Below, piece after piece: positions 22,527 to 25,446 of a stretch of DNA of 36,265 nucleotides. The stretch is from assembly GCA_016931895.1 (NCBI GenBank), contig JAFGDY010000259.1, positions 1-36,265 on the forward strand, given 5' to 3'. This stretch comes from Anaerolineae bacterium. Lineage in GTDB: Bacteria; Chloroflexota; Anaerolineae; 4572-78; J111. Position numbers and translations under genes: made by a program. Numbering within the stretch: position 1 is the stretch's first letter; the number at the start of each line of letters is the position of its first letter. The notes under the pieces were generated by a model, which had not been told where the DNA came from, did no database searches, and saw only the letters and a program-made list of their open reading frames with translations.

Positions 22527-23522
22527 ATGTTCTCTTTTGGCAGTAAACGCCTCAATCAATTTCTATTAATTCTACTCCTTTTTCTCAACGCCCGCGTTTT
22601 GATGTTGTTAGTTTTGCCTGCCGACAACCTGACCCTCTACGGCGATTACCCCTACTATTTTGACCTGGGGCGACTTTTTGGCGAGTTGGGCTATTGGCCG
22701 TTCATTCACTACTGGTCCGAATACCCGCCGCTCTTTCCCTCTTTTAACCTGGCAATTTATGAATTGAGTGGCGGCATTTTTAAAAATTACGTGGTCTGGC
22801 TTGGCCTGTTCTTGCTGCTATTTGAAGCGGGGATATTGGTCTTGCTCTATCTGCTGTCAAACAACGGCCGGGATGCCGACGCCGGGCCAGTCGGTTGGGT
22901 TTATGCCCTGCTGTATGTTCCTCTCTTTATCTGGCTAAGGCATTACGACCCTCTGGCCGTCTTCTTTTTTCTGCTGGCCCTGTTTACCTTGCTGCGTGGT
23001 CGCTCTTGGTGGCTGACCGGGTTGATCATTGGCGTCGGAACAATGATAAAATTTTTCCCTGTTTTGCTGCTGATACCCATCTGGTGGCTGCGTGGTTGGC
23101 AAACCGCCTTAAAAAGCGGCTTGGTGATTTTGCTGGTCATCATTATTATTTTTGGCCCGCTTTTGCTCCTGAGTCCAGATTATACCCTGGCCTCTTTGCT
23201 GGCCCAGTCTAGCAAATCATCCTGGCAAACGGTGTGGGCCTTGCTCGATGGCAATGTAGATAATACCGGCAGTTTCGGCCCCCTTGAAGATCATTTTGAC
23301 CTGGCTAAAGCAACAGAAACTCTCTACCATCCTTCACGCCTGTCCCCCTGGCTGACCCTGCTCTCTTTTGGGTTACTGGGGATATTCATTCTGACGCGCC
23401 CGCTGGTCAGAAACAAAAAAAATAGTTTAATCATCACCTCGCTGGTTTTGCTGATATTTTTCTGTGGGCCAAAGGCTGGAGTCCCCAGTGGCAGCTTTAT
23501 CTTTTGCCCCTGCTCCTGTTAA
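22527..23522 (+). CDS. GT87-like (DUF2029) membrane glycosyltransferase, truncated by frameshift
   Basis: 331 residues in this frame. The N-terminus has LYGDYPYYFDLGRLFGELGYWPF and SEYPPLFPSFNLAIYEL, the first-loop pattern of GT87/PIG-M-like polyprenyl-phosphate-mannose transferases; LRHYDPLAVFFFLLALF, MIKFFPVLLLIPIWWL and several other hydrophobic segments follow. The frame holds to about base 23457, then reads the unlikely CGPKAGVPSGSFIFCPCSC tail to a stop. One base out of frame, the sequence continues as a normal membrane protein to 23722 (see next entry). The intact gene would be about 398 residues. Either the strain carries a real frameshift or the five-T run at 23457-23461 was miscounted during sequencing. 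Confidence 0.75.
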   Translation: MFSFGSKRLNQFLLILLLFLNARVLMLLVLPADNLTLYGDYPYYFDLGRLFGELGYWPFIHYWSEYPPLFPSFNLAIYELSGGIFKNYVVWLGLFLLLFEAGILVLLYLLSNNGRDADAGPVGWVYALLYVPLFIWLRHYDPLAVFFFLLALFTLLRGRSWWLTGLIIGVGTMIKFFPVLLLIPIWWLRGWQTALKSGLVILLVIIIIFGPLLLLSPDYTLASLLAQSSKSSWQTVWALLDGNVDNTGSFGPLEDHFDLAKATETLYHPSRLSPWLTLLSFGLLGIFILTRPLVRNKKNSLIITSLVLLIFFCGPKAGVPSGSFIFCPCSC

Positions 23523-23722
23523 GCCTGCCGTTGGGACGGGCCGTGGTATTTATGTTGGCCCTGAGTTGGATTAACCTGCTGGAGTGGCCCATTATTCTCT
23601 CGCGGGGCCTGGTTGACCTTTTGCCGTTGACCATCATGGCCCGGACGCTGGTGCTTATCTTATTAGCTTGGGAGTTGTATCGGCACATGGACAAACCGGT
23701 TGTCCCTAAAACAGTTATCTGA
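23462..23722 (+). pseudogene. Out-of-frame C-terminal part of the preceding GT87-like gene
   Basis: Reading in the -1 frame from CTG 23462 gives LWAKGWSPQWQLYLLPLLL and then two hydrophobic helices, ending KPVVPKTVI. The WAKGWSPQWQ stretch is characteristic of the late loop in GT87-like proteins and joins naturally onto the preceding SLVLLIF helix if one T were added to the run at 23457-23461. In this frame the first stop upstream is at 23423, so the shift must occur after it. The TGA at 23720-23722 overlaps the ATG of the next gene as TGATG, the same coupling seen elsewhere here, showing that this frame is the one evolution preserved. A TTG-started 72-residue protein from 23504 is a less likely reading. 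Confidence 0.75.
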
Positions 23723-25446
23723 TGAAATCCATCTCATTTACCTCAAAATCTGTTTGGAGAGATTTAGCCCTCCTTTTTGTGTTGGCCCTGCTCATCCGTT
23801 TATTGGCCGCTTTGCCGCAGCAGCAACCCAATTATATGGATGCCGCTTATTATTACGTTAATGCCCTCAACTTGGCTGCCGGGCGCGGTTTTGTGGAAGA
23901 TTTTGTCTGGATTTACCTGGACCATCCAACCCCGCCCCCTCATCCCAGCCATCTCTATTGGCTGCCGCTGCCGTCTATCCTGGCCTGGGCGGGGATGGCG
24001 TTAGGCGGCACTACGTACCGGGCCGCTCAGGTATCTTTTGTTATCGCCTCGGCGTTGTTGGCTCCCATCACCTACATTGCCACTTACATTTTGTCAAGGC
24101 AGCGCTGGCAAAGCTGGCTAGCTGGATTGTTAATGATCTTTAGCGGTTTCTATTTTCCATTCTGGACGGCCATTGACAATTTTACGCCCTTTGCCGTGTT
24201 TGGGTCGCTGGCCTTGTTGACCGCCTGGTGGGGGATGGTAAATTACAAACCTGTCCTGAGCGAAGCCGAAGGATGGCAAATTACAAATGGCAAATTACAA
24301 ATAACAAGTTACAAATCACAAATAACAAATAACAAGTTACAAACAGTCATTCACAATTCACAATTCACAATTCACAATTCACAATTAATTATTCTTTCCG
24401 GCATCTGCGCTGGCCTGGCCCACCTCTCCCGCGCCGATGGCCCGCTCCTGCTGGTCGCCATTATCTTGACTGTTTTTTTGTATTTCATATTCCATGATAA
24501 ACTGTCCATTTCACGTTTCACGTTTCACGTTTCACGTTTTACTCTCTTCCTCCTCCTGGGCTACCTCTTAATTATGACTCCCTGGTTCATTCGCAATTGG
24601 CAGGTGGTGGGCGCGCCCTTATCCGCAGCCGGGATGCAGACCATCTGGCTGACCACTTATGACGATTTATTTAGCTATGGCCGGGAGTTGTCGCTCCAGA
24701 CGTTTTGGGCCCAGGGCCTCCAGGCGATATGGCAGGGACGCTGGTGGGCGTTGAAAACAAATTTGCAAACGGTTCTGGCGGTGTGGGGCATGGTTTTTGG
24801 GCTGCCGCTGGCCCTGATTGGGTATTGGCATTTGCGCCGTCATGTTTTGATGCAACTGGCCGGTTGGTATGCCTTGCTTCTTTTTATTGCCATGACTTTT
24901 ATTTTTGCTTTCCCCGGCGCGCGGGGCGGACTGTTTCATTCTGGAGGCGCCTTACTGCCCTTTATCTATGCCGCCGCCGCCGTGGGTTTGGACCGGTCTA
25001 TCAAGTGGGTGGTCGCTCGCCGCAGCCGTTGGGATGCGCGCCTGGCCCAACAATTTTTTGGAGTGGGTTTGGTGGTGATGGCCGTAGCCTTGAGCAGTTT
25101 CATTTATAATCAGCGCGTCCTCAAAAACAATACCTGGAACCGGGCCGATGGCCTCTATCCGGTGGTGGCCGCCTGGGTGGCCCAACAAAATCCGGAGGCA
25201 GTGGTGATGATCAATAATCCCCCGGCTTATCGTTATCACGGCGGCGGCCTGAGCGTGGCGATCCCCAATGAAGATATAGAAACTACCTTGCAGGCGGCTC
25301 GCCGCTACCGGGTGGATTATTTGATTTTGGAATATAATCATCCTGCCCCCCTGGATAAAATTTACAAACAAACGGTTGTGCATCCCCAATTATCTTTAGT
25401 TAAAACTTTTGAGGGTGTTTACATTTATAAAATTATTCAACCCTAA
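23722..25446 (+). CDS. GT39/GT-C-like membrane glycosyltransferase with repeat insertion
   Basis: 574 residues. The first transmembrane helix (LALLFVLALLIRLLAALP) is followed by the loop PNYMDAAYYYVNALNLAAGRGF, with the Asp expected to be catalytic in ArnT/PMT-like GT-C enzymes. About ten hydrophobic segments then alternate, and a soluble C-terminal domain (from about residue 470) ends with LILEYNHPAP. Between the helices LALLTAWWGM and LIILSGICAG lie about 48 residues encoded by tandem heptamers (bases 24240-24383), and a second set (bases 24509-24536) encodes SRFTFHVSRF. The frame stays open through both. Without the insert the length would be near 520, normal for the family. The start overlaps the preceding stop. 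Confidence 0.75.
   Translation: MKSISFTSKSVWRDLALLFVLALLIRLLAALPQQQPNYMDAAYYYVNALNLAAGRGFVEDFVWIYLDHPTPPPHPSHLYWLPLPSILAWAGMALGGTTYRAAQVSFVIASALLAPITYIATYILSRQRWQSWLAGLLMIFSGFYFPFWTAIDNFTPFAVFGSLALLTAWWGMVNYKPVLSEAEGWQITNGKLQITSYKSQITNNKLQTVIHNSQFTIHNSQLIILSGICAGLAHLSRADGPLLLVAIILTVFLYFIFHDKLSISRFTFHVSRFTLFLLLGYLLIMTPWFIRNWQVVGAPLSAAGMQTIWLTTYDDLFSYGRELSLQTFWAQGLQAIWQGRWWALKTNLQTVLAVWGMVFGLPLALIGYWHLRRHVLMQLAGWYALLLFIAMTFIFAFPGARGGLFHSGGALLPFIYAAAAVGLDRSIKWVVARRSRWDARLAQQFFGVGLVVMAVALSSFIYNQRVLKNNTWNRADGLYPVVAAWVAQQNPEAVVMINNPPAYRYHGGGLSVAIPNEDIETTLQAARRYRVDYLILEYNHPAPLDKIYKQTVVHPQLSLVKTFEGVYIYKIIQP
24240..24383 (+). repeat. Composite heptamer repeat array inside a coding sequence
   Basis: From 24278 to 24340 lie nine consecutive 7-base units of the AAATTAC type (AAATTAC, AAATGGC, AAATTAC, AAATAAC, AAGTTAC, AAATCAC, AAATAAC, AAATAAC, AAGTTAC). 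An eight-base joint follows, then five perfect ATTCACA units at 24349-24383. One more AAATTAC at 24240-24246 is separated from the array by an element containing CCTGAGCGAAGCCGAAGG (about 24250-24276). Because 21 bases make seven codons, the protein shows a matching seven-residue repeat (QITNGKL, QITSYKS, QITNNKL). I recall these heptamers and the CCTGAGCGAAG element as dispersed intergenic repeats in several phyla including Chloroflexota. Confidence 0.9.
24509..24536 (+). repeat. Four tandem TTTCACG heptamers inside the same gene
   Basis: Four perfect copies of TTTCACG run end to end and are translated in frame as part of a short loop between two transmembrane helices of the GT-C-like protein. 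The unit shares the TTCAC core with the ATTCACA array about 125 bases upstream, so both probably arose from one repeat family. The host frame is preserved. Confidence 0.9.

Follow-up and report, generated by a model that had tools for sequence, protein, structure and literature searches.

Analysis of the window, i.e., the whole stretch of 36,265 nt studied here, led to an ORF for a GT-C membrane glycosyltransferase in which several seven-base repeat arrays and a dispersed 18-bp element are read in frame. The features concerned are the following:

23722-25446, + strand: host ORF, 574 aa, GT-C membrane glycosyltransferase; one open frame holds all repeats
24238-24390, + strand: loop 1 insert, residues about 173-223 (51 residues)
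24240-24246, + strand: lone AAATTAC copy, seen in the sequence, preceding the 18-bp element
24255-24272, + strand: dispersed 18-bp element CCTGAGCGAAGCCGAAGG, read as part of PVLSEAEG
24277-24343, + strand: array 1, AAATTAC-like, 9.6 degenerate copies at period 7 (Tandem Repeats Finder)
24349-24386, + strand: array 2, ATTCACA, 5.4 copies at 100%, read as an IHNSQFT repeat (Tandem Repeats Finder)
24509-24539, + strand: array 3, TTTCACG, in loop 2, 4.4 copies at 100%, read as an SRFTFHV repeat (Tandem Repeats Finder)

A Pfam search of the host protein returned zero families, and the family assignment therefore rests on a fold search against solved structures, of which the best matches were AglB, ArnT, AftA, and PglB, all of them GT-C transferases. 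Both features of membership are present, namely the membrane fold and an acidic residue in the first large loop (D40), which would have the catalytic role that such a residue plays in GT-C enzymes. D40 and R237-A-D-G240 are among the residues invariant in 43 sequences. The AlphaFold2 model built on the same number of aligned sequences has a mean pLDDT of 91.4; stretches below 50 are confined to residues 179-212, where they take up most of the range, and the loop 1 insert is the sole low-confidence part of the model. Helices 154-173 and 217-236 flank loop 1, and helices 241-258 and 263-296 flank loop 2. The order of the helices suggests that D40 and R237-A-D-G240 face outward; together with the positive residues and the place of the invariant residues, it also suggests that both loops are cytoplasmic. 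Polysaccharide genes adjoin the host gene. Directly upstream, a GT87-like gene (Pfam GT87, 22527-23719) loses its frame near 23460-23470 and its protein resumes in another frame to about 23719, which points to a broken gene or else to a sequencing error.

The original prediction, that heptamer arrays and the element were captured in frame inside a membrane glycosyltransferase, is borne out, as all of them fall within the open frame. Likewise, the period of seven bases is read as a protein repeat of seven residues in arrays 2 and 3. The predicted span (24240-24536) ended 3 bases before the end of the last array (24539). Its placement of the repeats in loops holds for the long insert, which is unstructured between two helices, but array 3 lies where a loop gives way to a helix and codes for the first part of helix 263-296, which is not a floppy loop. 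No period-7 array with a score of at least 16 was found in the window beyond these three, and no exact inverted partner of at least 7 bases was found within 150 bp of the ATTCACA array.

A homologue of the host gene was found in 64 of 150 related genomes, and most alignments break at residues ~170-178 and 220-226. Across an alignment of 30 proteins, loop 1 is 51 residues long in the window protein, 21-38 in six, and 4-16 in 23, so that the same residues are not found at this place across distant genera. In the single genome of the same genus (G001), a homologue was undetectable. Judged from these alignments, the loop 1 insert is not ancestral, and the prediction that repeat DNA captured in frame had made new protein sequence agrees with the homologues, which are without those residues.

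Concerning the homologues themselves, we scanned them for arrays with a detector of our own design (fixed lag, match +1, mismatch -2, cut-off 12 to 16 per run). At lag 7, the 30 aligned homologues gave 26 arrays, of which 25 fell within the two loops and the other preceded the real start. In a larger set of 81, made of 80 Chloroflexota records, the best of 169 loci recognized by two conserved peptide patterns, plus the window gene, 28 arrays were detected: five in loop 1, 22 in loop 2, and one at the N terminus; the rest of the core gene sequence, 106 kb, had none. The two loops thus hold 27 of the 28 arrays in 11% of the DNA, as measured with loop borders that were drawn after the first 30 homologues had been inspected. 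The two sets overlap (e.g., G006 and G010) and are not independent. Periods 3-6, 8-13, 15, and 16 gave 0-2 arrays each in the 81 homologues and period 14, a multiple of 7, gave 17; codon shuffles of the loops yielded zero lag-7 arrays in 200 rounds. Arrays are carried by 19 of the 81 homologues, each with units of its own, and what had been noticed as the case of a single gene is therefore a recurrent one. The units in the loops include ATTTACG and TCACGCC, CAGCCGT, GTTTCGG, TGCAAAA, GTTCAAA, and CCAATCT, among others. On a tree from one FastTree run, several branches of which are weak, the 17 carriers of loop 2 arrays need at least 14 state changes, and sister tips bear different units. Specifically, G006 and G010, which are congeneric species, carry unlike arrays at matching loops of the host gene, and their arrays also differ at matching loops of a nearby membrane gene of 754/768 aa. 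Opposite the CCAATCT array of G006, the loop of G010 holds decayed, period-7-like sequence.

As contingency loci are described, the host gene joins a perfect repeat tract with a surface-polysaccharide cluster, and the unit length is not divisible by three. Slippage by one 7-bp unit could accordingly shift the frame and switch a surface-polysaccharide transferase off and on. However, the ORF is open through both loops in all 81 homologues, with no off-frame allele among them, the arrays are short (mostly 3-5 copies) and lie mid-gene, and others occur in the housekeeping genes for PurL and TrpC. Phase variation finds no support here and we regard it as highly improbable.

The units of the window are widely dispersed. 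In the source genome (G000; 6.06 Mb in 320 contigs), a 20-base WTTCACR pattern had 45 matches against 0 for the reversed pattern, three AAATTAC copies with up to 3 mismatches had 27 against 1 for the reversed control, and the pattern CCTGAGCGAAGYCGAAGG for the 18-bp element with up to 2 mismatches had 14 against 0, counts beyond chance. Additionally, 759,710 sampled bases of this genome contained 21 lag-7 arrays, with 0 in a first-order Markov control. The ATTCACA unit forms 16 array sites (control 0), array 3 of the window is the sole exact site found for three TTTCACG copies, and the most abundant unit found is ACGACCA, with 300 pattern matches (control 0). Among 100 relatives, CCTGAGCGAAGCCGAAGG occurs exactly in 29, TTTCACG in 20, and ATTCACA in 11, with the control 0 in all. 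Two features of heptameric simple sequence repeats are thus present, i.e., direct seven-base units beyond chance and a unit dispersed at many sites. Concerning the element, two copies of CCTGAGCGAAG in one large membrane protein (L037, 12567-12584 and 12889-12906) yield PERSRR in one frame and LSEVEG in another, which indicates that the peptide is not what is kept. Period 8 was also raised in the sample from G006 and G010 (L053-L070), with 7 arrays against 0-1 for the other periods that are not multiples of 7, and in the trpC gene of G006 an 8-base repeat follows a heptamer array.

The expectation that such repeats are normally intergenic depends on the unit. It fails for ATTCACA, with 12 of the 16 array sites in the source genome genic and four non-genic, and it holds for heptamer arrays overall, since 17 of the 21 arrays in the unbiased sample of that genome are non-genic and four are genic. 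Similarly, 5 of 26 arrays are genic in 340,000 bp of G006 and G010, and with about 92% open sequence the arrays are under-represented in genes overall. The 16 ATTCACA sites were classed by reading the surrounding regions. In the unbiased sample of the source genome and for ACGACCA, an array was called genic where an ORF stays open through it and spans at least 200 codons, 50 or more of them on each side of the array, so that doubtful ORFs can enter and broken genes count as non-genic; loci chosen for having matches (L037, L051, L052, and L067) were left out of the unbiased counts. In a genome of another family (G081), 6 of 21 TTTCACG arrays lie in open frames, some of them doubtful, by the requirement of 50 codons on each side only and over 20 of its contigs with TTTCACG arrays. 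ACGACCA sites are genic in at most 4 of the 20 inspected among the matches listed for the source genome, one of the four calls (L270) being a doubtful ORF of 213 aa. The genic share of ACGACCA differs from the 14 of 19 for ATTCACA-type arrays (12 of 16 from the exact pattern search plus 2 of 3 from the random sample; Fisher p 0.001).

According to our reading, ACGACCA is stop-free on both strands; as it is mostly intergenic nonetheless, stop and frame filters alone are insufficient to set the location. An inverted partner sharing at least 7 bases lies near 13 of 18 non-genic ACGACCA arrays, while 14 of 15 genic WTTCACR-type arrays lack one. It is possible that the cost of a hairpin inside genes keeps ACGACCA out. 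ACGACCA-type heptamers, seen at L278 (1447-1511), L282 (1482-1624), and L285 (1412-1541), among others, often form inverted pairs between genes, resembling hairpins or terminators.

Hosts of ATTCACA arrays identified by Pfam in the source genome are a P-type ATPase, a penicillin-binding protein, PurL, an AddB/UvrD-like helicase, an RHS protein, and a PMT-like transferase, while the remaining host genes encode large multi-helix proteins. In relatives, heptamers are found in RecJ, TrpC, a histidine kinase, an alpha-mannosidase, and a cyclase/AAA protein. Many-helix proteins make up 8 of 12 WTTCACR-family host genes in the source genome compared with 39 of 209 among sampled ORFs that are 400 aa or longer; seven of the eight have at least 6 hydrophobic peaks and the window gene was scored differently, by its AlphaFold2 helices. 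One 1205-aa many-helix membrane protein of G006 (L067, 7620-11234, - strand) bears seven separate in-frame heptamer arrays. Between two fixed motifs, TrpC of G006 is 14 residues longer than that of G010 from the same genus.

The repeated use of the same two loops and the enrichment of many-helix membrane hosts, together with the ordered helix modelled for the TTTCACG segment, could also be read as the mark of a selected loop, whose residues aid folding, partner binding, or the pacing of membrane insertion and for which heptamers are a convenient source. Such a function is very unlikely, given that 23 of the 30 homologues lack the loop 1 insert, close species have unrelated peptides, and similar inserts occur in the soluble enzymes PurL, TrpC, and RecJ.

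The array of PurL bears on how a single array originates. It is common to the source genome and G001 of the same genus, missing in six other relatives that cover the site, and its edges grade into degenerate units, as do those of array 1 in the window. Fading edges of this kind, inheritance within a genus, and the decayed sequence of G010 opposite the array of G006 are in agreement with birth in place, by which heptamer-like seeds in loops and spacers are grown, mutated, and replaced unit by unit through slippage, with no copying between sites; loops would be struck often because they are unconstrained. For a single array this is a serious rival, and it may act together with spread. As the only process it is possible but rather unlikely, because it predicts unrelated units, yet one unit is found at many unlinked sites (45 and 300 matches against 0), and TTTCACG and ATTCACA recur in 20 and 11 of the 100 relatives where the control is 0 in all.

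We favor, as the probable explanation, that heptamer arrays persist in genes where they are stop-free, keep the frame, and fall in a tolerant loop. They would constitute a dispersed and rapidly turning-over class of repeats in these Anaerolineae genomes, arising at, or being copied to, many sites, where slippage would then lengthen or shorten them. A period of seven bases runs through all three frames, so the sense strand must be free of stops in each; survival in a gene would further require that the whole insert keeps the frame and lies in a tolerant surface loop. The two GT-C loops would be such tolerant sites, which different heptamers therefore occupy repeatedly, presumably by tolerance rather than by benefit, and what spreads would be DNA and not a selected peptide. 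The copying step between sites is likewise one that we infer. A search of TrpC, PurL, and the G006/G010 cluster for a clean-ended pair of empty and filled sites found none, the loops being too divergent for end points to be set. Visual inspection of the regions around the array and element sites revealed no common flank, and neither a larger mobile unit nor a source enzyme was found.

A broader, unlikely alternative is a class-wide system that makes copies of heptamers from a shared vocabulary of units, with ATTCACA-type units entering transcribed DNA in one sense. As ATTCACA is sense-oriented in genes, where stops compel it, and also at four 5'-flanking sites, copying may target RNA or a single strand of transcribed DNA; ACGACCA-type units with an inverted partner would be excluded from genes, and unpaired units would enter. 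If this were true, the same protein loops would be constantly supplied with new peptides that keep the frame, throughout a bacterial class.

Whichever process supplies them, these arrays bear on why the unit is seven bases, how heptamers spread, and whether they touch proteins, and they lie in conserved enzymes against the expectation that repeats in genes have unit lengths divisible by three. The same loops have been struck many times independently, and the intact frame is a direct readout of selection, so that it becomes possible to measure how often new peptides are inserted, where they originate, and how well they are tolerated. This uncultured Chloroflexota bacterium and its relatives show that junk repeats can add new stretches to proteins, and annotators and builders of protein families should treat such segments as arrivals of DNA and not as conserved domains.

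The palindromic elements of Rickettsia are short selfish DNA of fixed sequence that is tolerated in frame in unrelated protein genes, and they offer the best analogy for selfish in-frame DNA, although the arrays described here are unpaired heptamers of many units. The 18-bp CCTGAGCGAAG element comes nearer to that idea but is palindromic at its ends only. A closer relation in unit length is found with other bacterial heptamers, as far as the cited accounts describe them: TAACTGA in Beggiatoaceae, cyanobacteria, and Bacteroidetes (PMC4679880), GGGAATC in Xanthomonas, and GGGGA(C/T)T in Nostoc (PMC4692102). According to Mrazek, cited in PMC4679880, heptamers outnumber every other class of long-unit repeat in most bacterial genomes that are rich in repeats, and repeats in coding sequence favor units divisible by three (Mrazek, cited by MacGregor, PMC4679880). 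The arrays studied here share with the heptamers of these accounts direct arrays of seven bases, genome-specific units, many sites, fast turnover, and no known mechanism of copying. However, those heptamers are mostly intergenic (22 of 24 mapped sets in Microcystis, PMC4679880; 93% in one Xanthomonas, PMC4692102), whereas ATTCACA is mostly genic and sits in conserved enzymes, and different units recur here in the same protein loops across a class. In Borgs, tandem repeats also lie in ORFs, where they make new and often disordered segments and are enriched in membrane or extracellular proteins, but the units in ORFs are, in the cited report, all divisible by three, unlike the unit of seven described here (PMC9879509). 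Among open-licence PMC papers, we found none on in-frame heptamer arrays in Chloroflexota. Finally, all four non-genic ATTCACA sites (L152, L154, L162, and L163), a small number, stand upstream of a gene start on the sense strand, which recalls the TAACTGA case.
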